A DNA stretch of 64,000 nucleotides from Klebsiella sp. RHBSTW-00484 (lineage in GTDB: Bacteria > Pseudomonadota > Gammaproteobacteria > Enterobacterales > Enterobacteriaceae), in contig NZ_CP055481.1 in NCBI RefSeq assembly GCF_013705725.1, forward strand, positions 5,208,001 to 5,272,000, in the 5' to 3' direction. Under the pieces are notes generated by a model that saw nothing but the letters and a program-made list of their open reading frames with translations, did no database searches and was not told the origin of the DNA. Made by a program: the position numbers and the translations under genes. Positions 1,048 through 32,790 of this stretch are shown here, one piece after another (position 1 is the stretch's first letter; the number at the start of each line of letters is the position of its first letter).

Positions 1048-1073
1048 CTTCTCATACTGTGGCGGGAAAGAAC

Positions 1074-2024: not shown

Positions 2025-2025
2025 T

Positions 2026-2475: not shown

Positions 2476-2508
2476 GCAGGTTTGCTCTTTTACATTGCCG
2501 CCGCTTGT

Positions 2509-2596: not shown

Positions 2597-2600
2597 TTTT

Positions 2601-5914: not shown

Positions 5915-5958
5915 CAGATTCTCGGTTCCGTATTTCGGTTTGATAAACACCGTCAGGG

Positions 5959-6897
5959 TTATGCCTGCCCGGTTAGCCCAAAGAAGTCGCGGGCCGTTAA
6001 CTCATCACGTGCGATTTGCGCTTTCAGTTCATCGAGCGACGCAAATCGCTGCTCGTTACGTATTTTTTTACGCAGTATTACATCTATATGGCGACCGTAG
6101 AGGTCCATTACAACATCCAACAGATGTACTTCCAGTTGCTGACGCACGCCGGATACCGTTGGACGAGTGCCAATGTTGGCAACGCCTACAAGAGGTTTGT
6201 CGCCAAGCCCTGTCACTTCAACCGCATAGACCCCTTTTACCGGGGAAACCTGACGACGCAGCGGTAAATTCGCCGTCGGGAAACCTATCGTGCGCCCCAG
6301 TTCATCGCCGTGGACAACGCGCCCGGAGATGGTAAACGGATGCCCCAGCAGGGTTTCCGCCAGCACCAGATCGTCATCCGCCAGCGCCTGGCGCACCGCC
6401 GTGCTGCTAATGCGCAAACCGCCTTCACAGAAGGTTTGGGTGCTGGTGATGTCAAAGCCGTATTCCACACCGGCCTTTTGTAATAACAAGAAATCCCCCT
6501 GGCGACCAGCGCCAAAGCGGAAATCATCGCCAACGGCAAGGAACTGCACACCTAAACGGCGGACCAGCAGTTCACTAATAAAATCCTGGGCGGTCAGTGC
6601 CGCAAAGCGCCGATCAAAACGCACGCATAGCACGTAGTCGACGCCGCTTTCAGCCAGATAGTTCAGTTTTTCACGCAGACGCGTTAAACGCGCCGGCGCT
6701 TTATCGGCAGCAAAAAGCTCAAGCGGCTGTGGCTCAAAAATCATCACCACCACCGGTAAACCGCGCTGGCGACCTTCTGCGCGCAAACGCTGCAATAATG
6801 CCTGGTGCCCGCGATGCACGCCGTCAAAATTTCCAATGGTCAGCACGCACCCGTGCGGGGCCTGACTGAGATTATGTATGCCGCGTATCAGCTTCAT
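5959..6897 (-). CDS. ribF: Bifunctional riboflavin kinase / FAD synthetase
   Basis: RibF phosphorylates riboflavin to FMN and adenylates FMN to FAD. The N-terminal nucleotidyltransferase domain shows [14 protein letters not shown] with the HxGH-type signature; the C-terminal riboflavin kinase domain shows [13 protein letters not shown]. Start at 6897 ([10 protein letters not shown]) gives 312 residues, one less than E. coli; an in-frame extension of 15 codons lacks support. First gene of the ribF-ileS-lspA-fkpB-ispH cluster, divergent from rpsT. Confidence 0.96.
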
Positions 6898-7491
<594 letters not shown>

Positions 7492-7514
7492 TCGCCTGCT
7501 TGTTGTCGCTTTGT

Positions 7515-7542
7515 GAAAAAACCCGCGAAAGCGGGTTTTTTT
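7515..7542 (+). terminator. rpsT intrinsic terminator
   Basis: ACCCGC-GAAA-GCGGGT hairpin followed by seven T on the plus strand, 24 bases after the rpsT stop. A textbook rho-independent terminator. Confidence 0.92.
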
Positions 7543-7931
7543 ATGCCTGTCGGTTGTCGACTTCGCTCATCTATCGCCATCGCCCCGCTTCTTTCGCCAT
7601 ACCAACCAGCACCCTCGCCAGGATCTCCAATAGCGCATATGAAAGATATTTTCTTTCATTGTAAAAATGATTTGATTTCATTTCTGATGAAAATGTGACC
7701 AGCATGGCAAATAGCAGAATAACTCATAGAAAAACGAATAAACGCAATCCTGATGTAAGATTTGATAATTGATCGCACCGCTGTGGTTAACTATTTTTTA
7801 TGCACAATTTAATGACTCCATTTAACCCTAAGGTCACTATTCATAAAGATTAAAAAATAAAAAACACCCTACTGCTTAGAAAATAAAAGCTGTTTTTCTG
7901 GGCGTATCGTTCCAATACAGGAGTTATCACC
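7543..7931. promoter_or_regulatory. Leader and promoter region of the GPH-GH31 operon
   Basis: 389 AT-rich bases with no gene seen. They should hold the promoter of the rightward sugar operon. A strong AGGAG ribosome-binding site lies at 7919-7923 before the symporter ATG. A TGTGA half-site at 7694-7698 resembles half a CRP box, but its partner half is poor, so catabolite control is only a guess. Confidence 0.4.
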
Positions 7932-9305
7932 ATGAGTTCTGTTATTGAGGATACCCAGACTTCCGGGTCAACATCATTATCTTTGCTACAGCGCATCAGC
8001 TACGGTTCTTTAGATGTCGCTGGCAACCTGCTGTACTGTTTCGGTTCAACGTATATATTATATTTCTACACCGACGTTGCTGGTATTAGCCTTGCTGTAG
8101 CAGGCGTGATCCTTCTTCTGGCGCGTATTGTAGACGGTATCGACGCCCCTATCTGGGGGATTATCATCGATAAAACACGCTCTCGCTACGGAAAATGTCG
8201 CCCCTGGTTTCTGTGGCTACCGCTGCCATTTGGTGTATTTAGCGCGCTGTCTTTTTGGTCTCCCGATATCAGCATGACCGGAAAAGCCATATATGCAGCA
8301 ATATCCTACATGATTGCCAGTATTTTATTTACCGGACTCAATACGCCGCTCAGCGCAATATTACCGCTAATGACTTTATCTCCTAAAGAGCGCTTGGTAT
8401 TAAACTCATGGAGAATGACCGGCGGACAAATTGGGGTCCTGTTAATGAACGCCACCGCGCTGCCGTTAGTGGCTTTTTTAGGTAAAGGTAATGACCATGC
8501 CGGGTTTATTTACACCGCGATTCTGTTCGCCATTATATCCTGTTCGCTAACCCTTTTTGCGTTTAAAAATATTCGCGAAATGGATGCGGATAAAATACAG
8601 AAAGAACCCAAACTGCCGATGAAAAAGAGCTTCGCGGCAATGAAAGGCAACTGGCCGTGGATACTGATGGTGCTGGCAAATCTGATCTTCTGGATAGCCC
8701 TTCAGCAACGTTCAACGACCATCGTCTATTATCTGACCTACAACCTCGATCGCAAAGATCTGGTGCCGCTGATTAACAGTCTGGCCACTATTCAGATCCT
8801 GTTTATCATCGCCATCCCTTTCTTCAGCAAATATATCGCCAAGACCTGGATTTGGATTAGCGGCCTGCTGGTCGCCACGCTGGGTGGCGTGATGATGTGG
8901 CTGGCTGCAGATAACATAACCTTACTGATCGCCGCTTGGGTTATCGGCAATATCGGCAGCGGCATCGCCTGCTCGATGCCCTTTGCCATGCTGGGATTCG
9001 CCGTCGACTTCGGCGCCTGGAAAACGGGCATTAAGGCAACCGGTATTCTTATCGCCTTCGGCAGCACCTTCTGCATCAAAATGGGCAGCGGCATTGGTAC
9101 CGCCTTCGCCGCCTGGATAATGAACAGCTTTGGCTACGTCCCCAACCACGCCCAAAGCACAGCCGGGCTGGAGGGGATAACCTGGGCCTTCATCTGGGCA
9201 CCCGCCCTGCTCTTCGCACTCGCCGCGATCCCGCTACTGTTCTTCCGCAAATACGAAGCCATGGAAGACAGGGTTCGCCACGATCTGGAAACAACCAACC
9301 ACTAA
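7932..9305 (+). CDS. GPH-family sugar:cation symporter (YicJ/MelB type)
   Basis: 457-residue inner-membrane transporter with about 12 predicted helices. The cytoplasmic motif SRYGKCRPWFLW and LNTPLSAILPLMT are diagnostic of the glycoside-pentoside-hexuronide (GPH) family, whose members import glycosides with Na+ or H+. It is followed 40 bases later by a GH31 alpha-glycosidase, the same pairing as yicJ-yicI in E. coli, so the two probably import and split an alpha-xyloside or alpha-glucoside. Substrate cannot be read from sequence. E. coli K-12 has no counterpart at this site; from memory Salmonella does. Confidence 0.88.
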   Translation: MSSVIEDTQTSGSTSLSLLQRISYGSLDVAGNLLYCFGSTYILYFYTDVAGISLAVAGVILLLARIVDGIDAPIWGIIIDKTRSRYGKCRPWFLWLPLPFGVFSALSFWSPDISMTGKAIYAAISYMIASILFTGLNTPLSAILPLMTLSPKERLVLNSWRMTGGQIGVLLMNATALPLVAFLGKGNDHAGFIYTAILFAIISCSLTLFAFKNIREMDADKIQKEPKLPMKKSFAAMKGNWPWILMVLANLIFWIALQQRSTTIVYYLTYNLDRKDLVPLINSLATIQILFIIAIPFFSKYIAKTWIWISGLLVATLGGVMMWLAADNITLLIAAWVIGNIGSGIACSMPFAMLGFAVDFGAWKTGIKATGILIAFGSTFCIKMGSGIGTAFAAWIMNSFGYVPNHAQSTAGLEGITWAFIWAPALLFALAAIPLLFFRKYEAMEDRVRHDLETTNH

Positions 9306-9345
9306 CGCTCTTTACCTTCACCATCTGAATATGGGAGGAACCACC

Positions 9346-11385
9346 ATGCCATTTTTGCAACAAGACCCGCGCCGTCTGGTCTGGCAGCAAAACGATCGCT
9401 ATCTATGGATAGAACCCTGGGGTGAGAACAGCCTGCGCGTACGCAGCGGCCGTCATCTACCGGTTATGCGAAATGAAGATTGGGCGCTGACGGAGCCGGT
9501 CGCTGAAAGCGCCTGCCACATCGTTTATGACCAAAAGCAGGCCACGCTGACCAACGGAAAGATTATCGCTATCGTCAATCAAAAGGGGCAAATAGCCTTT
9601 TATCGCCATCCGCATAAGTGCCTGTTGCAGGAGTTCTGGCGTCAGCGGGGGGAAATTGGCGAAGATGAATCCTCTCACGGCCAGTACGTCAGCGCCCTTA
9701 ATCTTGAGGGCCGCGAGTTCCGCCCGATTCAGGGTGGGAAATATGCGGTCAAAGCCCGCTTCGAAGCCGCCGAAGGGGAAAAAATTTACGGCATGGGCCA
9801 ATATCAGCAGGCGAATCTTGATCTCAAAGGATGCGTACTTGAGCTGGCCCAGCGCAACTCTCAGGCTTCGGTACCTTTTATGCTCTCCAGCCTGGGCTAC
9901 GGATTTTTGTGGAACAACCCGGCTATCGGTCGGGCGACGTTTGCGCAAAACGTGACGGAATGGGAAGCACACGTCAGCGAACAGCTGGACTACTGGATCA
10001 CCGCCGGAGATACCCCGGCAGAAATTAGCCAGGCTTATGCGCTCGCTACCGGCACGCCGCCGATGATGCCGGATTACGCCATGGGTTTCTGGCAGTGCAA
10101 ACTACGCTATCGCACGCAGGAAGAGCTGCTCGCGGTCGCCCGCGAATATAAACAGCGAAACTTGCCCATCTCGGTGATCGTTATCGATTTCTTTCACTGG
10201 CCAAATCAGGGTGACTGGATGTTCGATCCGCGCGACTGGCCCGACCCCGACGCGATGATTGCCGAGCTGAAATCATTGGGTATCGAGCTGATGGTCTCCG
10301 TCTGGCCAACGGTTGATAGCCGTACCGAGAGCTATCGGGAGATGCGCGAAAACGGCTGGCTGGTACAAACGGAACGCGGATTGCCGATTAACATGGACTT
10401 TCTCGGCAATACTACCTTCTTTGATGCCACCCATCCCGGCGCCCGCGACTACGTTTGGGGCAAGGCAAAGCGCAATTATTACGACAAGGGCGTGAAGCTC
10501 TTCTGGTTAGATGAAGCCGAGCCGGAGTTTAGCGTCTACGACTACGATAACTATCGCTATCACGCCGGGCCGGTGCTGGAAGTCGGCAATATCTACCCGC
10601 GAATGTACGCCAAAACCTTCTTTGACGGCATGAAAGCGGATGGCGAAGATCAGGTCATCAATCTGCTGCGCTGCGCGTGGGCAGGCAGCCAACGCTACGG
10701 CGCGCTGGTTTGGTCAGGCGACATTCACTCTTCGTTTCGATCGCTGCGCAACCAGTTTGCCGCCGGCCTGAATATGGGGATCGCGGGCATTCCGTGGTGG
10801 ACGACGGATATTGGCGGCTTTCATGGCGGGAATATTCACGACCCGCGCTTTCATGAACTGCTGATTCGTTGGTTCCAGTGGGGAGTCTTTAGCCCGGTGA
10901 TGCGCCTGCACGGCAATCGCGATCCGCAGATTTTGCCGGATCAGCCTTATCGGGACGGGATTGCCCAGTGCCCAACCGGCGCGCCAAATGAAGTCTGGAG
11001 CTATGGCGAGGACGTGTGTGACGTGCTGACGGGCTGTCTGACCTTGCGAGAGAAGCTCAAGCCGTATATTAAAGCGCTGATGGCAGAAACCCATAAACGC
11101 AATACACCGGTCATGCGGACTCTGTTTTTTGAATTCCCCGATCAGGTAAAAAGCTGGGAAATTACCGACCAGTACTGTTTCGGCCCCGATCTGCTGGTTG
11201 CACCCGTTATGCATGAAGGCATGCGCGAGCGCGACGTCTGGCTGCCGGAAGGTGAGAAATGGACCGATCTTGCCAGTGGCGAGAGCTATCAGGGAGGGCA
11301 GACGCTACGCTACGGTACGCCGCTAAGCCGCATCCCGGTATTTATCCGCGAAGGCGGGCAATATCGTAGCTTGCTGGCGCTGTAG
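9346..11385 (+). CDS. Glycoside hydrolase family 31 (alpha-xylosidase/alpha-glucosidase)
   Basis: Cytoplasmic retaining alpha-glycosidase. The GH31 nucleophile motif FWLDEAEPE places the catalytic Asp at residue 389, and VWSGDIHSSF places the acid/base Asp at about 459. The spacing of 70 is close to that of YicI. An N-terminal beta-sandwich, the TIM barrel (WQCKLRYRTQEEL onward) and a C-terminal beta domain are discernible. I start at 9346 (MPFLQQDP, 679 residues), because the in-frame ATG at 9331 lies on the GGGAGG ribosome-binding site itself. About 90 residues shorter than YicI. Probably acts on the substrate of the adjacent GPH symporter. Xylosidase versus glucosidase specificity is undecided. 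Confidence 0.88.
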   Translation: MPFLQQDPRRLVWQQNDRYLWIEPWGENSLRVRSGRHLPVMRNEDWALTEPVAESACHIVYDQKQATLTNGKIIAIVNQKGQIAFYRHPHKCLLQEFWRQRGEIGEDESSHGQYVSALNLEGREFRPIQGGKYAVKARFEAAEGEKIYGMGQYQQANLDLKGCVLELAQRNSQASVPFMLSSLGYGFLWNNPAIGRATFAQNVTEWEAHVSEQLDYWITAGDTPAEISQAYALATGTPPMMPDYAMGFWQCKLRYRTQEELLAVAREYKQRNLPISVIVIDFFHWPNQGDWMFDPRDWPDPDAMIAELKSLGIELMVSVWPTVDSRTESYREMRENGWLVQTERGLPINMDFLGNTTFFDATHPGARDYVWGKAKRNYYDKGVKLFWLDEAEPEFSVYDYDNYRYHAGPVLEVGNIYPRMYAKTFFDGMKADGEDQVINLLRCAWAGSQRYGALVWSGDIHSSFRSLRNQFAAGLNMGIAGIPWWTTDIGGFHGGNIHDPRFHELLIRWFQWGVFSPVMRLHGNRDPQILPDQPYRDGIAQCPTGAPNEVWSYGEDVCDVLTGCLTLREKLKPYIKALMAETHKRNTPVMRTLFFEFPDQVKSWEITDQYCFGPDLLVAPVMHEGMRERDVWLPEGEKWTDLASGESYQGGQTLRYGTPLSRIPVFIREGGQYRSLLAL

Positions 11386-21180: not shown

Positions 21181-21718
21181 AATACACCATACTAAAAGTA
21201 GCTGTCGCTGAGACGTTGCCTGCGACGACTGCGCCAGTGGCAACGTAATCCACACTCAGAGGAACAACGTTTTCGCCGTCGATTAAGGTTACAGTGCTGG
21301 ACGTTTCGCCAATATTCAGCGCCTGACCATCCGGACCGTACAGTTGCAGCGCAACATTGCTTGCCGCGCCCGCACCGGCGGTATTAGCCAGAGATCCTTC
21401 AAGTGTACCGTCCTGCTGACCATTAAAAATAACCGCAGCTTCCTGGCTTACCGTGGTGTCGCAATCTTCCAGCTTGATGGAGAAATCTTCTTTCTGATTC
21501 GCAGTCATCCCAGCAGCCGTTAATTTACTGGCACGAACCTGGCTCAAGGTTACCGTTTGATCAACGGAATCAGCAGAAACTGAGCAGGCGGCATTAACAA
21601 CCTGACCAACGAAATTCACGGTGCCACCGGAAACAGTTGCCGTATCCGCAAAGGCAGAGGACATCATGCTGCCCGCAGCAATAGCAGTCACCATCATGGC
21701 TAATACATGCTTTTTCAT
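21176..21718 (-). CDS. Major fimbrial subunit (BcfA-like)
   Basis: 180-residue type-1-like major pilin. Signal peptide with cleavage after SSAFA; mature protein starts DTATVSGGTVNFVGQVVNAACSV. The subunit Cys pair is Cys45 and Cys86, and the C terminus ATFSMVYS has the penultimate Tyr. First gene of a leftward operon; AAGGG ribosome-binding site. Its Ala/Val/Thr-rich composition is typical of shaft subunits. Confidence 0.94.
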   Translation of the reverse strand: MKKHVLAMMVTAIAAGSMMSSAFADTATVSGGTVNFVGQVVNAACSVSADSVDQTVTLSQVRASKLTAAGMTANQKEDFSIKLEDCDTTVSQEAAVIFNGQQDGTLEGSLANTAGAGAASNVALQLYGPDGQALNIGETSSTVTLIDGENVVPLSVDYVATGAVVAGNVSATATFSMVYS

Positions 21719-22146
21719 AAAAACCCTTTTAAATTTAATAAATGATAATCAGTTTTATAATTTCATAAATATCAGACGTTGCCAGACGGGAGTTACCCCT
21801 GGCTCTCTAAGCGTTTTTGGTTGCTTATACATAGAGAAAAACCACAACAATGAATGATGAAGCGTTCTACTAACCAAAAAGCAATAACGGAGTAATAGGG
21901 CTCTGACATTAATTAATTATTATGAAAGGGATAAACAGTTGCAATCATCATAGGCCGCTTTTAAAGGACTTGATGTAACCTCATGCTTTTAATGCATATT
22001 TCATTTAATCCGGCACCTATGCCATATGGACTATTGACCTATCACTCAACATATGAAAGCATCAAAAATAAATTAACATCGATAACAACAATTCGTCAAA
22101 ATGTTTAATTAATGTAAATCATCAACCAATCATTTTCACATAAAAA
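21719..22146. promoter_or_regulatory. Fimbrial promoter region
   Basis: 428 AT-rich bases without a gene. This must contain the promoter of the leftward fimbrial operon and the 3' end region of the IprA-like regulator gene. I see no pair of perfect inverted repeats flanking a promoter, so nothing points to fimS-type inversion. AT-richness suggests H-NS silencing (inference). Confidence 0.4.
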
Positions 22147-22839
22147 CTAATAGGCCGTAGGGAGTTTTTTCATATCTAACAAACGCCCACCATCGATATT
22201 GATATATCCCCCCTTTTTCAACTCAGAAAGGAGCTTCATGGTGCGGCTACGGGATATTCCTGTGCGTCGCTGAATAAAGTTGAGTACATTGATACTCTGT
22301 CGGTACTCACTCGCATAAGCCCAAAGTTCTATTAATAACGACCTGACTTTCAGGTAAGAATCCACTCCCACCAACTCGCGATCGCGCACACTCATCACCA
22401 TCAAGCGATAGGCCAAAATCCGCGCGACATCGTGCCAAAGATCGCACTCATCGGCGACTTTGATAAAATCAGGCAGGGACACAGCACGCCCACGGCATTC
22501 TGTTTCTGCAATAAGATAATGCTCAGGCCGGGTTGGAACGCCATAGGTTTCACCATAGCTATCAACCAGGCCGACAATGGAGGGAGAAAATGCTGATAAG
22601 ACATGAAGACCACTACCACAACGGCAAAATGAAAATATCCCGGACTCCAGTAATACGATTCTATTTTCGCCTTCAGAACTCAGGGAGAATTCATCCCCGA
22701 CCTGTAGGTGGAAAGGCTGACCGAATGACCATAATGCAGAGAATAGTGCATCAAGTGCGGCATGTGGTTTAGCTTGTTGAGAGAAAAAATATGAATTTAA
22801 GGTATTCTCATTATCATTTTCGACGATGTCTAATTTCAT
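22147..22839 (-). CDS. IprA-like winged-helix regulator
   Basis: 230-residue probable DNA-binding protein. The N-terminal part (about 30-130) resembles a cyclic-nucleotide-binding-type beta barrel (FHLQVGDEFSL...IVLLESGIFSFCRC), and the C-terminal part has a winged helix-turn-helix (FIQRRTGISRSRTMKLLSELKKGG). This is the layout of the IprA/YaiV-type CRP-like regulators commonly found beside fimbrial operons. No cAMP-binding signature is evident. Located just upstream of the fimbrial promoter in the same direction; it may control the fimbriae, the chitin cassette, or both. Confidence 0.75.
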   Translation of the reverse strand: MKLDIVENDNENTLNSYFFSQQAKPHAALDALFSALWSFGQPFHLQVGDEFSLSSEGENRIVLLESGIFSFCRCGSGLHVLSAFSPSIVGLVDSYGETYGVPTRPEHYLIAETECRGRAVSLPDFIKVADECDLWHDVARILAYRLMVMSVRDRELVGVDSYLKVRSLLIELWAYASEYRQSINVLNFIQRRTGISRSRTMKLLSELKKGGYINIDGGRLLDMKKLPTAY

Positions 22840-23175
22840 TATTTTCTTTAAAAACCATAATCATAAGTCAATCCACGATATACGTACAAATGTTTAGCTT
22901 CAATTAATAATAAGTAAATACTCATTGTAGTATATCTATGTTATTCAAGCACAAAAACGCAATACTTAGCATAATAAGTAGATTCTCAATCAAAATAATA
23001 ACAAAGAATTTAAAAACATAATGACAGGCATTAACACAACAACAAAGTTACGGATGTTACTATTACCATAGAAATAAAAACATATGAAAAAACAGTGATT
23101 CAGAATATTAAACCTTCTGAACCACCGTGAGTTAAGTGGTGCCATCCACGCTGCATGGAAGAACACGATACGATA
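22840..23175. promoter_or_regulatory. Gap between the IprA-like gene and the 1041-residue gene
   Basis: 336 very AT-rich bases, no gene seen. It holds the promoter of the regulator gene and the 3' untranslated end of the 1041-residue gene. A weak hairpin (ACCAC/GTGGT at 23121-23140) without a T run is the only structure near that stop codon. Confidence 0.4.
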
Positions 23176-26100
23176 TTATTTAAAATATTTTGGCGCCGCG
23201 TAATACTCGACCATTTTTTCCGCCAGCCAGCCGCCATCTTCGCCATTGGAGTGAATAGTCGTAATACTGACCGTCGAACCTCCGCCCCAAAGCACAGAGA
23301 AAACGTTATAGTCAGGCAGATTCAGCGCCTGCATTTGCCCCCAGTCATAACCGTCATCCTGACGTAAAAAATCGCCTACCGTCGCAACACCATAAGTTGT
23401 GCTATTCACCACCGTATTTAACAACTCTGATGTGATGGTATTGAGGTCGCAACCAATCCGCGAGTCCCCCATAAAGAAAGAACCGCCAGAGGCAAAATGC
23501 GCTGTTGCAATTTTGCTGGTTCCCTCTTCCACTGTTGGCATATGCCCACCGGGAATTTGCCATAACATCGCCGGTTTATGCAGGTCTTTCGCCGCCTGTT
23601 TTACCATCCCCAAGTAGTTAAACCAGCAGGTTGCATTCCAACCATAGTGCGCCAATGCATCAGGACTGAAACAATCACGTTCAAATTTATCGAAAGCGAT
23701 AAAATCTGGCGCATACTCGCCGCTATATACTCCCAGCTCATTGATAAATTTAGCGATTTCCGCCCCCTGAGCGACAGGGTCAGCGTTTGTACGGAGCACC
23801 CAATCGGCAGTTCCCGTTGCCCAAACGTTAGTCTGCCAGCCAAACGCCACATCCGGAGCAAATTGTCGAACAAGGTAGTTAATTGCCTGAACATAACCGT
23901 ACAGATCGTTACTGAACTCCGGTAATATCGGCGCGCTAAAACCTGGGAGGGATGGCAAAGCATTTACCGCAGCCGCCAGTTGAACATTGACCGGCACGCT
24001 ATTCGCTTTACGAACTGCGGTATAGCCGTACGGCTCTTGCTGCATAGCCCCCAGGAAATCAGGATTAAGCACGAAGGTTGCCGGAACCGCGTGGTCGCAG
24101 TCTTTGTAAGATTGCGCCGCCAGGCATTGGGTAATGAAGTTGCCAAAGTGATTACGTAACCGCTGACCATCCTGGAGATCCGACAGCGCACTACCGCCGC
24201 TGGCATTGGCGGTATAAACGACCATCACTGGCATCACTGAACGATCGGCCTCTTTTTCAATCTCACGCACCAGCGGAACCGTTTTATGAATAGGTAAGGA
24301 ATCATAATCGAGGAAACCGTCACCATTGACATCAACTTCCGCCGCTGGAATCGGATCGCCGCCGCCATCAAAACCATCATATTTAAACAGGGCGCTAAAA
24401 GGCACGTCGCGATACAGCGTGACGGCTTCTTTGGCGTTAACTGTCACCCCACCATGGGCGAGATAATCTGGCCAACCTTTGACCTGCAACGGAACGCCCT
24501 GAATGAACTCCAGTGTGATGTTATTCACACTTTTCAGCAGTCGCAGCGGCGCATCCAGTTCACAACGCCATGGCGTACCTTCAACAAAAATATCCGCTAC
24601 TTCAACGCTGTATTGGCCGGGTGCCAGGCGTATCGCCAGCGATTGTTGACGCGTATCGCTCTCCAACATGAGGGTATATTGATATTGTCCACTGCTGAAC
24701 AAGTAGCGCTGAGGGACCACGCCCTTCGGCAAACCCAGTATCGTGGCCTGCACATCAACAAAGTCGTGACTATCAATCCCGGTTTTCTGGAAACCCACGC
24801 TGACTTCTTTCACTTGCCCTTGCATCGGCGTGAAAATAGTCGGCTGAGCAAGCGTGGTGATCATCTGGTTGTTGATAACGGTGTGTTGCAAGCAAATCGC
24901 ATAGCTGTGACCCGCCATAAGTTGAGTCACGAGCTGAATTTGCCCAACAGGCAGCGTCAGCGTTCTTTCGCATACGCCCGCTTCTGACCACAGCTCAACC
25001 ACCATGTTCGCACCGATGAATTCAGGAGCATCGATATTAAGGCGCACCGAGGCAAACTGTACCGGCGACTGATATGCCACCAGGCATGTCCGGGCATCAT
25101 CACCGGAAATAAGTTTGAGCGTCACTGCTGATTCCGCAGGCGTAATCCTCATTTCATCATTGCACAGTTCCAGCACAGTGATGCCGTACTCTCCAGCGCT
25201 AAGATCGCCAATAATTAATGATTGCCCCCACTCTCCAGCAAAGCGCTGTGTAGTGGCGCCGGGATAAAGCAGGTCAATCATCGGCTTAAGCGTTGTGCTT
25301 TCCGCCAGCGATGGAAACTGAATCACTATTTTCCCCTGACGTCCCGGATCGTGTGCCAGCGTGGCCGTTAAGTCGCTCATGGCGACCGGGGTCTGGGTCG
25401 CGGAGAGATAAAACTGCAGCTCGGCGCTTGCGCTTGCCGCCAGCAGAAGTTCCCCATCATTGTTAATGGTAATAACGTTTTTCTCGATGGGCCAACCGCC
25501 ATCACTGCCCAGCGTCACTGGCTTGTTACCTAATAAAGAGCCGCTAAAAGGGCTGTAGGGATCGGGGTGTGCGCTGGCAGTGAACTCCAGCTTGAGTTGA
25601 TTAAGATCGAGAGATTGTGAATAGAGATTGGTCACCGTGAAAGTCACCCGCTGATACCAGCTGGTTGTATTCACCGAGCTTGCAGTAATAGCGAGTATTT
25701 CGCCCTCGATAACAACATCATCGCTAGATTCTTCAGGTTCTGGTTCAACCTCATCCGCCGCATCATCGGCAGGAGCTTCAGGTTCCGGATCAACCTCATC
25801 TGCCGTTTCGTCGGCAGGAGCTTCAGGTTCCGGATCAACCTCATCTGCCGTTTCGTCGGCAGGTACTTCAGGTTCTGGTTCAACTTCATCTGCCGTATCG
25901 TCAGCAGGAACTTCAGGCTCTGGTTCATCTGCTGCTTCATCTTGTGCCGATGAGGCCAGCGTTAATGTAAAGGTAGATATTTTTACCGGTACCTGAGTCG
26001 CGGCAAAACTGAAAAATAACGTACCGCTTTCGCCCGGCTGCAATAACAGTTCACCGCTGTTATTGATAATGATTTCATTAATATCAAGCGTCCCTTGCGC

Positions 26101-26301
26101 CATACCGCTCAACGTCAGTGGCATATCCCCTTTGAGAGTGCCGCCAAAATTTCCCCATGGGTCCTGGTGACCCGCACCAGTAAAACCGATTGCCGCATGA
26201 TTCATATCCACGGCACGACTATTTTCATTGGTGATAGTTAAAGTGACTTTTTGATACCAGCTATTTACATCAATCTGACTGCTTTTAATCAAGACGGACA
26301 T
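23176..26301 (-). CDS. Large modular carbohydrate-active-like protein of the chitin cassette
   Basis: 1041 residues, no signal peptide (starts MSVLIKSSQIDVNSWYQ). Layout: beta-rich module 1 (about 1-118), acidic Pro/Glu repeat linker (about 120-196), module 2 (about 205-325) clearly homologous to module 1, several further beta-rich segments (about 330-640), and a C-terminal domain (about 640-1041). The two modules share the W-Y-Q-(K/R)-V-T, H-x-D-P, I-N-N-x-G-E-L-L-L and A-T-Q-x-P-V positions and resemble carbohydrate-binding modules. The C-terminal region has TIM-barrel-like strands and acidic candidates (FDKFERD, Asp871/Glu874; MLWQIPGGH; FFMGDSRIG) but fits no glycoside hydrolase family I can name. 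GAGGA ribosome-binding site. Lies after chiA, behind a terminator; probably co-exported with the chitinase. Confidence 0.7.
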   Translation of the reverse strand: MSVLIKSSQIDVNSWYQKVTLTITNENSRAVDMNHAAIGFTGAGHQDPWGNFGGTLKGDMPLTLSGMAQGTLDINEIIINNSGELLLQPGESGTLFFSFAATQVPVKISTFTLTLASSAQDEAADEPEPEVPADDTADEVEPEPEVPADETADEVDPEPEAPADETADEVDPEPEAPADDAADEVEPEPEESSDDVVIEGEILAITASSVNTTSWYQRVTFTVTNLYSQSLDLNQLKLEFTASAHPDPYSPFSGSLLGNKPVTLGSDGGWPIEKNVITINNDGELLLAASASAELQFYLSATQTPVAMSDLTATLAHDPGRQGKIVIQFPSLAESTTLKPMIDLLYPGATTQRFAGEWGQSLIIGDLSAGEYGITVLELCNDEMRITPAESAVTLKLISGDDARTCLVAYQSPVQFASVRLNIDAPEFIGANMVVELWSEAGVCERTLTLPVGQIQLVTQLMAGHSYAICLQHTVINNQMITTLAQPTIFTPMQGQVKEVSVGFQKTGIDSHDFVDVQATILGLPKGVVPQRYLFSSGQYQYTLMLESDTRQQSLAIRLAPGQYSVEVADIFVEGTPWRCELDAPLRLLKSVNNITLEFIQGVPLQVKGWPDYLAHGGVTVNAKEAVTLYRDVPFSALFKYDGFDGGGDPIPAAEVDVNGDGFLDYDSLPIHKTVPLVREIEKEADRSVMPVMVVYTANASGGSALSDLQDGQRLRNHFGNFITQCLAAQSYKDCDHAVPATFVLNPDFLGAMQQEPYGYTAVRKANSVPVNVQLAAAVNALPSLPGFSAPILPEFSNDLYGYVQAINYLVRQFAPDVAFGWQTNVWATGTADWVLRTNADPVAQGAEIAKFINELGVYSGEYAPDFIAFDKFERDCFSPDALAHYGWNATCWFNYLGMVKQAAKDLHKPAMLWQIPGGHMPTVEEGTSKIATAHFASGGSFFMGDSRIGCDLNTITSELLNTVVNSTTYGVATVGDFLRQDDGYDWGQMQALNLPDYNVFSVLWGGGSTVSITTIHSNGEDGGWLAEKMVEYYAAPKYFK
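25732..25923 (-). repeat. 45-bp tandem repeat encoding an acidic Pro-Glu linker
   Basis: Four full 45-bp units (25744-25923) plus a partial fifth. Each encodes a 15-residue unit of the form PEPE(V/A)PAD(D/E)(T/A)ADEV(E/D). The stretches 25771-25815 and 25816-25860 are identical base for base, which indicates recent duplication. It separates the two homologous modules of the 1041-residue protein and is likely to vary in copy number between strains. Confidence 0.92.
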
Positions 26302-26327
26302 TGACAGAATTCCTCGTTCCCTGGTGG

Positions 26328-26354
26328 AAAAAAGCCCCGGAAAACCGGGGCCTT
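26328..26354 (-). terminator. Terminator between chiA and the 1041-residue gene
   Basis: CCCCGG-TTTT-CCGGGG hairpin extended by G-C and A-T pairs and followed by a T run on the minus strand. A smaller ATTTTCG/CGAAAAT hairpin (26371-26389) sits right after the chiA stop. The downstream gene therefore depends on readthrough or on its own promoter, giving it lower or separate expression. Confidence 0.85.
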
Positions 26355-26391
26355 AGTTATGGAGCCCAATATTTTCGATTAACGAAAATGA

Positions 26392-28500
26392 TTAGTAAGC
26401 ACCAAGGTCAGTCCATGCCTGGCCCGCAGCACAGTTCAGATCCGGCTGGTTGCCCTGAGACCACCATTTCACCTGGTAGTTGTGGCCTTTCCAGCTAACG
26501 ATTTCGAAAGTACCCCAGATTCCGCCATAAACGGTATTGGCATCCCACAGCGCGTAAGGCGTTGTTTCAGTATCTGCCGGAGTCTCTTCATCGGCCGGAG
26601 TGGTATCTTCTTCCGGCTCTACTGGAACGACGATTTCTTCCTCTTCTTCCTCTTCCGGCTCAGGTTGAACCTGAGATGCAGCCGGAACAGCAATCAGCAC
26701 AAAACGCTGTTGAGTAGAAGGCTCGCCCCAGGTATCACGAACAAACAGGGTGAACTGGAAGGTAGTTTTAACGGAAACTTCCGGTACGACAAACTCGATC
26801 ACTGCGACAGTTTTGTCAGCAACGGTGATTTCTGAAGGCACGCCCCAGCTAAAGGTCATATCGTCTTCATCTTCATCAGAAGAACCTTCGCCAGACAGCT
26901 GTACAGTAGAGCCACCGACAACGCGCAGTTCAATTGCCGCTTTCGGCGCATGGTTTACGTCAGTAGTCTTATCTTCTTCCTCTGCTTCGTCAGCGGCTTC
27001 TACGTTGATACCCTCAAAGTAGAACGGTTCCATATCGACAACTTCAGAAGAAATTTCGTAGCCCAGGCCTTCACGAGCGGCGTTAACCAGCACGCCGTTG
27101 TCCTGATCGATAGTCCAGGTGAACATCCCGCCCAGACCCAGTTTCGCTGCGTATTCGCCCTTCGCTTTCACTGAACGCGGAGTATCCAGAGACATAAACA
27201 GCTTGCTTTCCGGGTTGTACAGGTAGTCAGCATCGGCAACCTGGTCGGTGTAGACGTTGAAGCCGTTACGGCCTTTCTGGTTTTCCAGATCCAGGTAGTT
27301 ATAAATCACGTCGTACCATTCGTTGGTACCGGATTCAAACGTACCGGTAGTGGTACCAGTACCTGCATTGTAGGAGCCTTTCAGCGGAGACAGGGATTCC
27401 AGCTCAGCGCCGTGACCGTTACGGGTGTAGCCTGCATAACCGATATTGATGCGATCCGACGGGAAACCTTCAGACAACAGGTGGTCAACGATGGTATTTA
27501 CCGCCCAGCCGCCTTCAGTCACTGCCTTCAGGTTTGTATGGTGAGTCAGAGTCTCTGCCCACGGAGTACCAAAGAAGTCATAGGTCATCAGGTTGATGCC
27601 GTACAGACCGGCGTTCAGCAGCGCTTTGACGTTGGAGTAGTCGAAAGTCGCGACTACAGCAGAGCTGGCGATGGAGATTTTGACATTGCTCAGGCCTGCG
27701 GAATCCAACTGCTTACGCAGCTCGCCAATCAGCAGGGCATAGTTTTCGCCATCTTCCGGACCGCATGGGTTGCCTGCGCCTTCCGCGTTCGGGTACTCCC
27801 AGTCAATATCCACTTCGCTGAACATCGGGAACTGTTTGAACAGTTTCACCACGCCTTTGGCGAAAGTTTTACGGGCGGAATCAGAAGCAGAGGTTTCGTG
27901 GAAACCATTACTCATGGTCCAACCGCCGATGCTCATAGACAGCGCCAGTTCGTGGCCCTGAGCTTTCGCTTTGGCCTGCAGGTCACGCAGGCCGCCGAGC
28001 AGACCTTTGGTGTTCGCCTGAGTGACGGTCTTCGGCTCAACATCCCAACCGCTGACATCGTGGCCGACGTTAACGTAGGACTGGAAATCGCCCCACGGGT
28101 CGAGGAAAGTCGGTTCGTACTGCACTTTACCGCACAGCTCTGCGCCTTCAGCAACCACATCGCGATACAAGCCATCAACTTTGTGGAAGCCTGTCACGCC
28201 GACGAAACCGACAATGATTTTGTCGTAGGCGGTAGGGGATACATTGGTCAGATCGTAACCACGACCACGGTTATCTTTCGAATCATCTCCCTGCAGGCGT
28301 CCATCATACTGAGACCAGTCAGTGTAGTAGCCGAATACCTTAGGTTTAGTCGTGGAAGACTTATATTGGTTATAAACCGGCTTAGCGACACGTGCAGAAG
28401 TATAGCTATATGCGCTGACTTCTTTTGCTGGGTTAAAACCATCAGCTGCGTTGCTGGTTTCAGTAAGAGTATCGCCTTTAATCAGTTTGCTTGTAGCCAT
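26392..28500 (-). CDS. chiA: GH18 chitinase without signal peptide
   Basis: 702-residue chitinase. The GH18 barrel (about 50-500) begins KVFGYYTDWSQYDGR; the catalytic motif VDIDWEYP puts the general acid at Glu235 with Asp231 and Asp233. The first Asp of the DxxDxDxE signature is Ser here. An acidic stretch, a PKD/Ig-like domain (about 514-602), a Glu-rich linker (603-643) and a C-terminal CBM5/12-type chitin-binding domain (about 644-702, with the WW motif QVKWWSQG) follow. Start at 28500 (MATSKLIKGD) has an AAGGA site; the 29-codon extension upstream is unsupported. No Sec/Tat signal: export presumably by the adjacent holin/endolysin. From memory, close to Salmonella ChiA at the same locus. 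Confidence 0.93.
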   Translation of the reverse strand: MATSKLIKGDTLTETSNAADGFNPAKEVSAYSYTSARVAKPVYNQYKSSTTKPKVFGYYTDWSQYDGRLQGDDSKDNRGRGYDLTNVSPTAYDKIIVGFVGVTGFHKVDGLYRDVVAEGAELCGKVQYEPTFLDPWGDFQSYVNVGHDVSGWDVEPKTVTQANTKGLLGGLRDLQAKAKAQGHELALSMSIGGWTMSNGFHETSASDSARKTFAKGVVKLFKQFPMFSEVDIDWEYPNAEGAGNPCGPEDGENYALLIGELRKQLDSAGLSNVKISIASSAVVATFDYSNVKALLNAGLYGINLMTYDFFGTPWAETLTHHTNLKAVTEGGWAVNTIVDHLLSEGFPSDRINIGYAGYTRNGHGAELESLSPLKGSYNAGTGTTTGTFESGTNEWYDVIYNYLDLENQKGRNGFNVYTDQVADADYLYNPESKLFMSLDTPRSVKAKGEYAAKLGLGGMFTWTIDQDNGVLVNAAREGLGYEISSEVVDMEPFYFEGINVEAADEAEEEDKTTDVNHAPKAAIELRVVGGSTVQLSGEGSSDEDEDDMTFSWGVPSEITVADKTVAVIEFVVPEVSVKTTFQFTLFVRDTWGEPSTQQRFVLIAVPAASQVQPEPEEEEEEEIVVPVEPEEDTTPADEETPADTETTPYALWDANTVYGGIWGTFEIVSWKGHNYQVKWWSQGNQPDLNCAAGQAWTDLGAY

Positions 28501-28892
28501 TTTTAATTTCCTTTTAAGTTTGAAAAATTGTCGCAGTTCGTTCTGCGGGACCAATAATCCAGTGCTCAAGGAAAAATGGCTAATCATTAAACATCACATT
28601 TTCAACATCTCCCCATATACATACCAATGATGCTTATCTGATGTACCTAAGCACAACGTCCTCTGCCTGGTTACGTATATCAAAACCATGATATGAGCAA
28701 TAAACAATCACCATATTAAATATCATTTATCAAGCCATTAAATGTCATTTAACTTCCATGAGATAATGTGATTCAGGTCTCTCACACCAATGACAATACA
28801 ATTAAAAAGATGAGTATTAATAGCTTAAGACAATTCTTGCACCATATATTCAGCACAGGCAATCATGATGTATATAACTAAAGGACGACGTT
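28501..28892. promoter_or_regulatory. Divergent chiA / export-regulator promoter region
   Basis: 392 bases, strongly AT-rich, no gene. It separates chiA (leftward) from the membrane-tethered regulator and endolysin (rightward), so one regulator binding here could switch cargo and export genes together. Ribosome-binding sites: AAGGA before chiA and AAAGGACG before the rightward gene. I could not define operators by eye. Confidence 0.55.
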
Positions 28893-29336
28893 ATGAAAAC
28901 TTATCTCATTAATGACAACTACATTTACAACGAAGGAAAGTATGAACTAAGGACCATTTCAAACTCGCAGGTCATTAAGATGACAGCTATGAGAGCAAAA
29001 TGTCTTAGCTTCATTATCGAAAACGCACATCTGGACATCATTGAAAGGCAAAAAATAACCACAGAGTTATGGGGTAGCCGCAGTCATTTCGTTAACGATG
29101 CTAACCTCACGCAGATACTCTACTTGATCAGGCGAGATCTGAAGTCTCTTGGCATTAATGATCTCTTTATTACCATTCCACGGCAGGGGATTCAGGTTAA
29201 CAAAGAGATTGCGATTAAAATGATAGATAGTGAAAAGAAAGAAACCAAAAGACAAGTTATCAGGAAAACGCTGGCAGCATTAACCACCGTATTTTCAGTC
29301 ACGCTGGGTACAGTGATGTACATGCATATTCATTAA
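28893..29336 (+). CDS. Membrane-tethered winged-helix regulator (ToxR/CadC-like)
   Basis: 147 residues. The N-terminal about 105 residues look like an OmpR/ToxR-type winged helix (ELRTISNSQVIKMTAMRAKCLSFI..., TELWGSRSHFVNDANLTQILYLIRRDLKSLGI, ITIPRQGIQV). A single hydrophobic helix (about 120-143, LAALTTVFSVTLGTVMYM) ends almost at the C terminus (HIH), so there is no periplasmic sensor domain. AAGGA ribosome-binding site. The endolysin gene starts 15 bases after its stop, so the two form an operon. The pairing with an endolysin and chitinase resembles the regulator linked to type 10 secretion in Yersinia; the effector is unknown. Confidence 0.82.
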   Translation: MKTYLINDNYIYNEGKYELRTISNSQVIKMTAMRAKCLSFIIENAHLDIIERQKITTELWGSRSHFVNDANLTQILYLIRRDLKSLGINDLFITIPRQGIQVNKEIAIKMIDSEKKETKRQVIRKTLAALTTVFSVTLGTVMYMHIH

Positions 29337-29351
29337 TTCAAGGAAAAGAAA

Positions 29352-29885
29352 ATGAACCCAATTATCGATGGTATTTTAGTAATGGAAGGCGGCTATACCC
29401 TCAATGCAAAAGATAGAGGTAATGCCACCAACTGGGGTATCACTGAAGTAACTGCACGCGCTCATGGTTATACTGGAGACATGTGCGATCTCACACGCAT
29501 TGAAGCATACGCTATTCTGGAAAATGATTACTGGATTAAGCCCGGATTTGAGTTAATTGCCCAGATATCGTATCCCATCTCCTTCGAGCTTTGCGATGCA
29601 GCAGTCAATATCGGAACACACTACCCTTGCGTATGGCTGCAGCGCTGGCTGAATGTTTTGAATCGGGAAGGAAAAAACTATCAAGATATCAATGCAGATG
29701 GTCATATTGGCCCTGTCACACTGGCCGCATTGAACCATTACTTGTCATGGAGAGGAAAGGAAGGTGAAGAGACTTTAGTTAAAGCATTAAATTGTAGCCA
29801 GGGCTCATACTATTTAGACATTGCAGAAAAAAACAAACAGAACGAAGAGTTTATTTACGGTTGGATAAAAAACAGAGTTACATGA
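29352..29885 (+). CDS. GH108 N-acetylmuramidase (endolysin)
   Basis: 177-residue peptidoglycan hydrolase. The N-terminal MEGGYTLNAKDRGNATNWGIT motif is the GH108 active-site region with catalytic Glu12; a C-terminal peptidoglycan-binding region includes NADGHIGPVTLAALNHY. No signal peptide, so it needs the holin or another route to reach the wall. The family includes phage endolysins and TtsA, which S. Typhi uses to release typhoid toxin. With no other phage genes nearby and direct linkage to chiA, its role is most likely protein export rather than phage lysis. AAGGA ribosome-binding site. Confidence 0.92.
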   Translation: MNPIIDGILVMEGGYTLNAKDRGNATNWGITEVTARAHGYTGDMCDLTRIEAYAILENDYWIKPGFELIAQISYPISFELCDAAVNIGTHYPCVWLQRWLNVLNREGKNYQDINADGHIGPVTLAALNHYLSWRGKEGEETLVKALNCSQGSYYLDIAEKNKQNEEFIYGWIKNRVT

Positions 29886-29900
29886 CTTTACATCAAAAAT

Positions 29901-29924
29901 AAAAGACTCACGGATGAGCCTTTT
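29901..29924. terminator. Bidirectional terminator between endolysin and holin genes
   Basis: AAAAGACTCA / TGAGCCTTTT, a 10-bp stem with one mismatch and a 4-base loop. Its A/T ends give T runs on both strands. It sits in the 56-bp gap between the two convergent stop codons and keeps the two transcripts apart. Confidence 0.8.
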
Positions 29925-29941
29925 ATATTAATTAAAACCTG

Positions 29942-30286
29942 TTAGTTAAGCTTAACATCCTCAATGATTTTTTTAACTTTCTCACCGATAATTTTTAATA
30001 TCGGCGCGGCGAAAACGCCGCCTAAACCAGCGGCCAATAGCACCATATTAAAACTAAGACCCTGTTCGATGGCAAACGCACTGAGTAAAAAACTGGTAAA
30101 GCATGATATAACAATCTGAGTTAAACAATGCATAATACCTTTATAAGATTCATCATCCGACTGTTTGTCTTTGCGGAGAAGATAGCTTACAAAACCGCCC
30201 CATGCACCAATCGATATAATGGTTAATAAAATCTCGACTTCCAGTAAGACCACTTCCGTTGTCGCTAAATGGTTAGATATAGACAT
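29942..30286 (-). CDS. Phage-type holin
   Basis: 114-residue small membrane protein with about three hydrophobic helices (VEILLTIISIGAWGGFVSYLL; IVISCFTSFLLSAFAI; MVLLAAGLGGVFAAPIL) and a charged Lys-rich C-terminal tail (KVKKIIEDVK). This is holin topology, similar to LydA-type holins. Start at 30286 (MSISNHLATT) has a CAGGAG site 8 bases upstream; the 12-codon extension is within the leader. It should form inner-membrane lesions that let the muramidase and cargo cross. Convergent with the endolysin; an ERIC element lies 24 bases before its ATG. Confidence 0.85.
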   Translation of the reverse strand: MSISNHLATTEVVLLEVEILLTIISIGAWGGFVSYLLRKDKQSDDESYKGIMHCLTQIVISCFTSFLLSAFAIEQGLSFNMVLLAAGLGGVFAAPILKIIGEKVKKIIEDVKLN

Positions 30287-30310
30287 ATTAAACTCCTGTA
30301 GTAATATGGT

Positions 30311-30437
30311 TATACCCGTCATACTTCAAGTTGCTTGTGCGTTGGCTTTCCTCGCTCCCCCAGTCACTTACTGGAGTAAGCTCCTGGGGATTCACTGCGT
30401 CGCCGCCTTCCTGCAACTCGAAATATTTAGGGTATAG
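30311..30437 (-). repeat. Complete ERIC element (127 bp)
   Basis: Contains both hallmark ERIC cores: AGTAAGCTCCTGGGGATTCA at about 30385-30404 and, on the other strand, AAGTGACTGGGGGAGCG. The ends are the inverted TATACCC/GGGTATA, and the length is exactly the canonical 127 bp. It lies in the leader of the holin gene, between LysR gene and holin start, and would fold into a long hairpin in the holin mRNA. Confidence 0.93.
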
Positions 30438-30536
30438 ATAAGTTATCTAAGGAGTGTATGCAATATCAGGTACAGATAATAATCAATGAGTATCATCCGC
30501 CCCCATTTTACATCTCTCCCCCCAGGGGGAGAGTTC

Positions 30537-31484
30537 TCAGCGGCGAAAAGAGGAAAGCGTATGTAGCATGGCGATAATTTCATTAATCACTGATAAATTT
30601 TTGCTATTCTTTTTCCATGACGCATAAACCTGTATCGACCTAAACGTTAGCTCAGGTGGTGGCTGAATAAATTTGATATCATATTTACGCTGATTTTTAT
30701 AGAAAAGAGCCAATTTTAACGGCATTAAGGCAATCAATGATGTGCGTTCGATGATACTCATCAAGCCATTGATTGAATCACTACGATAACCCACTGTGCG
30801 AGTTCCTTTATAATAAGGATCATCTTTAAATAACCCACTATCATTGATAATCATTGGGAAGTTCATTCCAGATTGATAGGTGGCATGGCGTGAAGAATAG
30901 AAATGATGCAACGAGAGTTGGGATAGTTGGCTTAGCATGTGGTTACCCGCGCAGATACAGACAAAGCTCTTAAAACTATCAATCATTTGATTATCAATAC
31001 CGGGTACTGTCACTGGCTCGATACTCATCACTAAATCACACTCTGCGGTGAATAATTGTTCAATCATTCGCTCGCGGCTGATATTTCTGGATGAGAAGTG
31101 ATTTATTAACACCCGATCAAAAACATCACTATCATACAGTTGTGAAAGGTAATAGTTCTCAATGATATCGCTTCCCAGAACAGTGATTTTAGCTTCATCA
31201 TCCTTTTGATGACCAGTCTGAAACGTGTCGCTAACCAGTTCCATGACTTGACGAAAATTCTGATGGATTTCGATAGCTTTAGCGGTAGGTAGTAATCCCT
31301 CCTTTCCGCGAACGAACAGTTCTTCCGGATAATAGCCCTGCAAGCGTCTGAGTGCCAGCGAGACCGCTGCGGGAGTAATTCCGAGTTTCTTGGCTGCTTT
31401 AGCCGCATTTCCAGCCGAAATAACAGCGTCAAGGATTTTGATTAAATTATAATCAAAATCCTTGTTGGCACCTTTCGATCCCAT
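30537..31484 (-). CDS. LysR-type regulator of the chitin cassette (ChiR-like)
   Basis: 315-residue LysR-family protein. The winged helix-turn-helix (DYNLIKILDAVISAGNAAKAAKKLGITPAAVSLALRRLQ) is followed by the effector domain (ITVLGSDIIENYYL onward). Its position next to holin and chitinase matches the LysR regulator ChiR of Serratia chitinase genes and, from memory, a LysR gene at the Salmonella locus. It may activate chiA and the export genes; the inducer is unknown (chito-oligosaccharide would be a guess). AGAGG ribosome-binding site. Confidence 0.82.
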   Translation of the reverse strand: MGSKGANKDFDYNLIKILDAVISAGNAAKAAKKLGITPAAVSLALRRLQGYYPEELFVRGKEGLLPTAKAIEIHQNFRQVMELVSDTFQTGHQKDDEAKITVLGSDIIENYYLSQLYDSDVFDRVLINHFSSRNISRERMIEQLFTAECDLVMSIEPVTVPGIDNQMIDSFKSFVCICAGNHMLSQLSQLSLHHFYSSRHATYQSGMNFPMIINDSGLFKDDPYYKGTRTVGYRSDSINGLMSIIERTSLIALMPLKLALFYKNQRKYDIKFIQPPPELTFRSIQVYASWKKNSKNLSVINEIIAMLHTLSSFRR

Positions 31485-31596
31485 CCGCTGTTAGCCTCTA
31501 AATACGAAAAAAAGCAATATAGATAATACTCAAAATAAATCAATTCTTAGCCCTTATAAATAATAGGATAATTCAAGAAAAGCAGTGGCTAAGATA

Positions 31597-31627
31597 GAAA
31601 AAAGCCTGAGCACAAAGGCCCAGGCTT
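31597..31627 (-). terminator. dnaKJ operon terminator
   Basis: AAGCCTG...CAGGCTT stem with T run on the minus strand, 27 bases after the dnaJ stop. It separates the dnaKJ operon from the accessory chitin cassette. Confidence 0.82.
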
Positions 31628-31653
31628 AAGATAAGACAGGAAGTGAGCAGCAA

Positions 31654-32790
31654 TCAGCGGGTCAAATCATCAAAGAACTTCTTCACGCCGTCGAAGAAAC
31701 TTTTGGAGCGTGGACTATTTTTCTCGCCCGTTGGCCCGCCAAAACTTTCCTGAAGATCTTTCAGTAGCTGCTTTTGCTTGTCATTGAGGCCAACCGGCGT
31801 TTCGACCACTACCCGGCACAGCAGATCGCCCTGCGCACCACCGCGCACGGACTTCACGCCTTTACCACGCATGCGGAATAGCTTACCGGTCTGCGTCTCA
31901 CCAGGCACTTTCAGGTTCACACGACCATCCAGCGTCGGAACTTCAATCTCGCCGCCAAGCGCAGCCATAGTGAAGTTAATCGGAACTTCACAGTACAGGT
32001 TGTTCCCTTCACGCTCGAAGATTGCATGCTGCTTAACCTGAACCTGAACATACAGATCGCCCGCTGGCGCGCCATGCTCGCCCGCTTCGCCTTCACCCGC
32101 CAGGCGAATACGGTCGCCGGTATCTACGCCTGCCGGGATCTTAACCGACAGGGTTTTGGTCTTCTCAACGCGACCGTGACCGTGGCATTTGTTGCACGGA
32201 TCTTTAATCAACGTCCCGCGACCCTGACAGTGTGGACAGGTCTGCTGTACGGCGAAAAAGCCCTGGCGCATCTGAACCTGGCCTGCTCCATGACAGGTCG
32301 GGCAGGTTTGCGGTTGGCTACCCGCCTTAGCGCCGCTGCCATGGCAAACGTCGCACTCTTCCAGCGTTGGGATACGGATCTCTTTGGTCACGCCACGAAC
32401 GGCTTCTTCCAGAGTCAGATCCATGTTGTAGCGCAGATCGGCACCGCGCGAAGCGCGCTGACGGCCACGACCACCACCGAAAATATCGCCAAATACGTCG
32501 CCAAAGATATCGCCGAAGTCAGCACCACCGCCACCAAAACCACCGCCGCCGCCCATGCCGCCTTGTTCAAAGGCCGCATGACCATACTGATCGTAGGCCG
32601 CGCGCTTCTGGGCATCGGTCAGGATTTCATACGCTTCTTTGATTTCTTTGAATTTTGCTTCGGCCTCTTTATCGCCCTGGTTACGGTCCGGGTGATATTT
32701 CATGGCCAGGCGCTTGTACGCCTTTTTGATTTCACGCTCTTCCGCTGTTCTGGAAACGCCTAAAATCTCGTAATAATCTTGCTTTGCCAT
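31654..32790 (-). CDS. dnaJ: Chaperone protein DnaJ (Hsp40)
   Basis: Co-chaperone that delivers substrates to DnaK and stimulates its ATPase. 378 residues. J domain (1-70) with the HPD motif in KYHPDRNQG, Gly/Phe-rich region ([14 protein letters not shown]), four CxxCxGxG zinc repeats ([32 protein letters not shown]) and the C-terminal substrate-binding domains. Immediately downstream of dnaK, with a long hairpin in the gap. Confidence 0.98.

Follow-up and report, generated by a model that had tools for sequence, protein, structure and literature searches.

A chitinase island beside dnaJ

The stretch considered here (the window, 64,000 nt in full) covers positions 5208001–5272000 of contig C1 (NZ_CP055481.1) in the 6.94 Mb genome of Klebsiella sp. 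RHBSTW-00484, and it holds an island of about 9 kb in which a chitinase gene lies beside genes for a muramidase and a holin. The island is bounded by dnaJ/dnaK and by a chaperone-usher fimbrial operon; these flanks were read by eye and are annotated likewise in a syntenic Salmonella record, and thrA and ribF lie further away. Three minus-strand genes come first, reading from the left: those for an HTH_46 regulator, the 1041-aa protein and a GH18 chitinase. The genes for a small regulator and a GH108 muramidase follow in divergent orientation, and a LydA-type holin and a LysR regulator are again encoded on the minus strand. In the following list, percentages are identities to the Salmonella orthologues named.

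26392..28500, minus strand: chiA, GH18 chitinase, 702 aa (PF00704, E 8.8e-56; 79% to STM0018)
28893..29336, plus strand: chiR, ToxR-like regulator with a C-terminal hydrophobic segment (82% to STM0017)
29352..29885, plus strand: chiP, GH108 muramidase with an EGGY motif and no signal-like N terminus (PF05838/PF09374; 75% to STM0016)
29942..30286, minus strand: chiH, LydA-like holin with three hydrophobic zones, 114 aa (PF16083, E 1.6e-17; 75% to STM0015)
23176..26301, minus strand: STM0019-like protein, 1041 aa, candidate second cargo, no signal-like N terminus (66% to STM0019)
30537..31484, minus strand: LysR-type regulator, STM0014-like (PF00126; 74% to STM0014)
22147..22839, minus strand: STM0020-like HTH_46/IprA-related regulator, a syntenic neighbour (PF15977, E 7.5e-28; 73% to STM0020 in locus L127)
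28716..28752, no strand: array of four TTAA-N7 units with an 11-bp period, between chiA and chiR, candidate regulator operator
30310..30436, minus strand: repeat of about 127 bp resembling an enterobacterial repetitive intergenic consensus (ERIC), in the holin gene leader, ending about 24 bases before the chiH ATG

The genes named in a preliminary description of this DNA were all found where it had placed them (GH18, PF00704; the 1041-aa modular protein; GH108; the holin, PF16083; LysR, PF00126), and the three helices it gave the holin correspond to three hydrophobic zones. Orthologues moved the start of chiA inwards to 28500 (listed open reading frame, ORF, from 28587) and that of chiH to 30286 (listed from 30322). 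ChiP matches GH108 at E 1.9e-20 and PG_binding_3 at E 3.1e-29; a CBM5/12 match in ChiA is below the Pfam cut-off. The 147-aa chiR product has no Pfam match, and its identity comes from the 82% match to STM0017. It had been described as a membrane-tethered regulator: the regulator is present, but its C-terminal hydrophobic stretch peaks at 1.48 (19-residue Kyte–Doolittle average), under the cut-off of 1.6, and the putative transmembrane segment thus rests mainly on orthology.

The island flanks look like ordinary chromosome. DnaJ and DnaK are 97–99% identical to the proteins of K. oxytoca, K. spallanzanii and K. michiganensis, which suggests a host from the K. oxytoca group, and the gene order of the island is the same in these three species and in Salmonella; this recurrence argues that the arrangement is not due to chance. 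As the preliminary description had stated, no phage structural, replication or integrase genes are apparent among the ORFs read, the scan against phage profiles covering three proteins only. ARAGORN predicted no tRNAs in the window, and Rfam gave no matches at gathering scores over 21700–31700.

Orthology with the Salmonella chi operon and the route of export

The record AFYI01000001.1 (S. enterica Infantis SARB27), filed with phage records yet described as a whole-genome contig, agrees with the window in gene content, gene order and orientation. Its notes bear the tags STM0014 (LysR), STM0015, STM0016, STM0017, STM0018 (chitinase), STM0019, STM0020 and STM0021 (bcfA), for which the protein identities to the window are, in that order, 74, 75, 75, 82, 79, 66, 73 and 82%; the flanking dnaJ and dnaK are 95% and 96% identical. 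Salmonella-like chi genes were seen in two further records of the phage collection, OR850988.1 and OR845638.1, which look like chromosome pieces.

In 2023 the S. Typhimurium operon was described as a Type 10 Secretion System (T10SS) (PMC10109510), and the arrangement described here is, as its orthologue, not new. According to that study, ChiA was no longer secreted once stm0015 or stm0016 had been deleted, STM0017 (ChiR, ToxR-like) drives chiA, and no effect of STM0014 (LysR) was seen in the conditions used. The STM0015/STM0016 pair has since been named ChiH/ChiP (PMC13284979). A literature search over titles and abstract openings, with subscription journals mostly outside its scope, turned up no work on this operon in Klebsiella and none on what STM0019 does.

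The features of the Salmonella system recur in the island. A GH18 chitinase without a signal peptide lies beside a holin/muramidase pair; the muramidase (STM0016 orthologue) likewise lacks a signal peptide and has the EGGY motif, the holin is an STM0015 orthologue by 75% identity and PF16083, and the STM0017 orthologue would be a ToxR-like regulator with a C-terminal transmembrane segment. The best 12-residue N-terminal hydropathy is 0.30 for ChiA (read from the orthologue-supported start), 0.82 for the large protein and 1.16 for ChiP, compared with 2.22 and 2.48 for two fimbrial controls with clear signals (the usher control taken without its first 20 listed residues). By this comparison none of the three proteins has a signal-like N terminus.

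Spanins were looked for within the island and throughout the genome. No ORF with a lipobox is present in 21800–31700. Run on three control loci (two with the same gene), the script found Rz1 in each, and in three of five relatives it gave one chance-looking match inside dnaJ or the large gene. PF03245 has no match in the window genome at E<=0.01, although 14 of the 25 genomes searched have matches, the nearest on the contig of a cassette being about 51 kb away (G070). The Rz1 profile gave one sub-threshold match in the window genome (E 0.068). Thus no pair of inner- and outer-membrane spanins of the kind found in Serratia- and Yersinia-type T10SSs was recovered from the cassette by lipobox, PF03245 or Rz1 searches, other and single-gene spanin families lying outside these searches. 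PF13539 (Peptidase_M15_4), which we take to be the family of the endopeptidase ChiX, has no match in the window genome and matches in 4 of the 25. The lipobox, PF03245 and PF13539 results bear out the preliminary suggestion of a minimal version without spanin pair or endopeptidase, and the check for spanins elsewhere in the genome, which it had proposed, produced nothing beyond the sub-threshold Rz1 match. Both Salmonella T10SSs are also reported to be without spanins (PMC13284979).

Taken together, the island is very probably the Klebsiella-type orthologue of the Salmonella chi operon, encoding a spanin-less T10SS; the type 10-like holin/muramidase route first proposed for the chitinase gains support from this orthology. 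By analogy, the system would work here as it does in Salmonella. An outside signal would raise ChiR, which would activate both the divergent chiA side and the chiR–chiP side. ChiA, and probably also the STM0019-like protein, would be made without a signal peptide, the holin ChiH would let the signal-less muramidase ChiP into the periplasm, and ChiP would open the wall locally; the cargo would then leave via an outer-membrane step.

Of 295 genomes sampled from the family, 44 have relatives of the GH108 gene at E<=1e-3, the window genome included. Around these matches 37 loci were fetched, with places of E 3e-9 or worse, the window and locus L009 excluded. In 22 of the 37, chiA, chiR, chiP, chiH and lysR all match (tblastn E<=1e-3, counting broken copies); of these 22, 17 adjoin dnaJ/dnaK. 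The same holds for all six named loci, two of which are on the same contigs as sampled loci. A further 13 match the GH108 gene only, one (L064) has chiR, chiP and lysR at a contig end, so that chiA may be cut off, and one (L059, described below) lacks chiA. None of 5426 E. coli genomes has a place covering 80% of a query from the chiA start to LysR.

The nearest solved structures to ChiA are Chi2 (E 6.6e-112) and Chi1 (E 1.7e-102), which are parts of YenTc, released by a T10SS in Yersinia entomophaga (PMC10847048). As the release of YenTc and that in S. marcescens are described as lytic in the same source, this resemblance would fit a lytic T10SS, in which a small fraction of the cells produces the cargo together with holin and muramidase and then bursts, as in Y. 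entomophaga and induced S. marcescens. The preliminary description had likewise considered release from a lytic subpopulation. This is unlikely for the window, however: the Yersinia and Serratia systems have Rz/Rz1-type spanins, which were not recognised here by the searches above, and the direct Salmonella orthologue is reported to be non-lytic, also at the single-cell level (PMC13284979). In PMC10109510, RecA was not released, the colony-forming units did not fall, no lysis was detected and about half of the cells expressed chiA.

GH108 and the holin are both phage-type families, GH108 relatives are present in 515 phage records, and the G+C content is 40.5% from regulator to LysR versus 52.2% for the whole window, as might be expected of decayed prophage lysis genes lying by chance beside a chitinase and without a role for it. 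The five-gene linkage across the sampled loci, the low ratios of nonsynonymous to synonymous substitution (dN/dS) where computable, and the lack of phage genes around the island among the ORFs read make such an origin very improbable. Additionally, ChiH matches no phage record at E<=1e-5 except three that look like Salmonella chromosome pieces. The other GH108 gene of the genome (L009, C1:3339000–3358000) does sit in a phage remnant, accompanied by an S24 repressor, an antitermination N peptide, Phage_holin_8 and Phage_holin_3_7, and it looks different from the window chiP; these neighbours led to its rejection as a second T10SS. Klebsiella of this group export pullulanase by a type II secretion system, but exit of ChiA by Sec and that system, with the holin and muramidase serving something else, is hardly credible given that ChiA and the STM0019-like protein have no signal-like N terminus and the two fimbrial controls have clear ones.

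Several observations weigh against a Salmonella-type T10SS that is intact and maintained in this organism. The window ChiP has N at the second G of a DxGGxT motif adjoining EGGY, a position occupied by G in all 28 other rows that cover it (27 distinct genes), and a repeat is inserted in the holin leader; either change could weaken the system. Among relatives, the type strain of K. michiganensis (L008:10001–10534) and L055 have a broken chiP, a hint that the system has been lost more than once, and S. arizonae (L004) has a split chiA; the system is therefore dispensable in some lineages. Where dS was computable, often at values >1, dN/dS is 0.02–0.14 for chiA, chiR, chiP, chiH and the gene for the large protein. 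In pairs with the window dS is saturated for chiR in one of five, chiP in three of five and chiH in five of five, and dN/dS therefore says nothing on selection on the window's own holin. Furthermore, no TTAA array lies upstream of chiH in the window or in Salmonella, though ChiR is reported to control chiH (PMC13284979).

Control sequences and candidate cargo

The TTAA-N7 array sits 140 bp ahead of chiR. The pattern was seen first and then tested on the same loci, namely 27 chiR upstream stretches including that of the window. The mean best score was 14.2 of 16 at period 11, versus 10.5–11.0 at periods 8–10 and 12–14. In 17 of the 27 stretches the score was reached by none of 200 single-base shuffles, in 23 by at most five, and in four (L050, L062, L069 and L071) it was not significant. 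Since the loci are related, part of the signal is shared descent. OmpR/PhoB-type regulators commonly use an 11-bp direct-repeat period, and the array is a candidate ChiR operator. Upstream of chiH, 3 of 29 stretches (window included) scored above all 200 shuffles, all three from one genus. The array was not seen before the second chiA genes described below (L083, L085), nor before the two STM0019-like genes examined out of the four on other contigs (L118, L119). These gaps, with that before chiH in the window and Salmonella, led us to reject the array as proof of an operator for the whole regulon.

The label of the ERIC-like repeat rests on its letters, which resemble those of ERIC, together with its length and copy number. 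At least 41 rows were found in the window genome (query and one split piece included; 40 of 189 candidates were scored). A 28480–31500 query matches 5376 of 5426 E. coli genomes; in the 10 rows shown, it is the repeat that accounts for the match. The distance from LysR stop to holin start is about 125 bp longer in the window than in five named relatives and L127, and in none of these six loci is the repeat found at the same place. Its predicted hairpin has an energy of -57.3 kcal/mol (z -7.4). ERIC elements of 127 bp are known, with evidence for effects on mRNA stability (PMC2229807).

The STM0019-like protein, whose N terminus is not signal-like, is a candidate second cargo. STM0019 itself is mentioned once in a Salmonella paper (PMC3662779). 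The 1041-aa protein has no Pfam family at E<=0.01, and its profile gave no match to solved structures at E<=1. Models of low confidence (the full-length one with a mean predicted local distance difference test score of 49.5) suggest N-terminal beta modules, an acidic linker, more beta modules and a C-terminal alpha/beta barrel-like domain. The C-terminal third is strongly conserved in an alignment of 16 members; its strands alternate with helices, and a low-confidence model gives weak GH6-like fold matches with other barrel hydrolases close behind. A distant relative on an S. marcescens plasmid (26% identity) is annotated ‘chitinase’, and the window genome has another of 865 aa (L117:8991–11588; about 27–29% identity). 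Kinship with the type II-secreted chitinase of E. coli was rejected: by eye, the L117 relative has neither adjoining secretion genes nor a signal-like start. The large gene has matches in 23 of 295 sampled genomes. Among the 17 dnaJ-linked loci it is present at >=80% coverage in nine, as a fragment in two and not found in six, and in four genomes (G103, G213, G286 and G035) it is full-length on a contig other than that of the cassette.

A second ChiA gene (L083:9366–11555; C1:4352365–4354554), 84% identical and without a signal-like start, is present in the window genome and also in G242 (L085). By eye, its surroundings comprise siderophore-type genes and an IS110-like transposase, and no holin or muramidase gene was seen next to it; the second ChiA may therefore be served in trans by the window cassette. 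A third GH18 gene (431 aa; L084:7547–8842) has a signal-like N terminus, and its product is thus probably exported by another route.

One locus beside dnaJ (L059 of genome G009, 142–10606) has ChiP, LysR and two ChiR-like regulators, one of the two identified by eye, with no chiA match. Its holin is about 9.5 kb from ChiP, past a 1613-aa RHS-repeat protein and other unknown genes. The RHS-repeat protein in the chitinase slot is a candidate cargo swap. Such variation raises the tentative, and on balance doubtful, possibility that the Enterobacteriaceae have, on the dnaJ side, an export chassis with exchangeable cargo. ChiR, ChiP, ChiH and LysR would be constant, and the cargo would vary between ChiA alone, ChiA with the STM0019-like enzyme, and, in one genome, the RHS-repeat protein. 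Further cargo genes would lie elsewhere, as with the second ChiA and the STM0019-like genes on other contigs. The TTAA array would be a shared ChiR operator, and the ERIC-like insertion would put holin output in the window genome under RNA-level control.

Comparison with known secretion systems

The system itself is already published in Salmonella; the TTAA array, the second cargo candidate, the second ChiA, the ERIC-like repeat and the RHS cargo swap are computational leads beyond it. The range of a spanin-less, reportedly non-lytic T10SS would reach beyond Salmonella to Klebsiella and other Enterobacteriaceae, and the system could be studied there apart from Salmonella virulence. A genome without a PF03245-type spanin would be a useful test bed for how cargo crosses the outer membrane without spanins, and the candidate operator, second cargo candidate and cargo swap lead to concrete predictions.

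The preliminary description had drawn its parallels with Serratia, Yersinia and S. Typhi, which is the right kind of system, but had missed the closest one, the Salmonella chi operon (PMC10109510). The YenLC/RoeA T10SS of Y. entomophaga shares with the window an OmpR/PhoB-type regulator (PMC10847048) and the Chi2/Chi1 relationship of its cargo, but has the PepB endolysin with Rz/Rz1 and is described as lytic. The ChiWXYZ T10SS of S. marcescens likewise combines chitinase cargo, a holin and a dedicated regulator, and STM0014, whose orthologue is in the window, is said to be homologous to the Serratia ChiR (PMC10109510). It differs in its ChiX endopeptidase and ChiY/ChiZ spanins (PMC10847048), which the searches of the window genome did not find, and in that Serratia chitinases are reported to cross the inner membrane by Sec (PMC9527704), whereas the window ChiA has no signal-like start.

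The solved structures nearest to the window ChiP are 6v40 and 6v3z (Sen1395), and Sen1395 is presumably TtsA-like. The TtsA muramidase of the S. Typhi typhoid-toxin T10SS is in turn reported to resemble STM0016 (PMC10109510); that system has another cargo and another control, by PhoP (PMC13284979). In the Salmonella chi T10SS every gene is the same as in the window, as are their order, orientation and place beside dnaJ, the GH108 muramidase, the ToxR-like ChiR and the lack of a recognised spanin. The two differ in sequence (66–82% identity across the island), in the ERIC-like repeat in the holin leader and the G-to-N change in the DxGGxT motif of ChiP, and in the complement of chitinases, the window genome having a second ChiA gene and three GH18 matches compared with one in the Salmonella-like genome G260.

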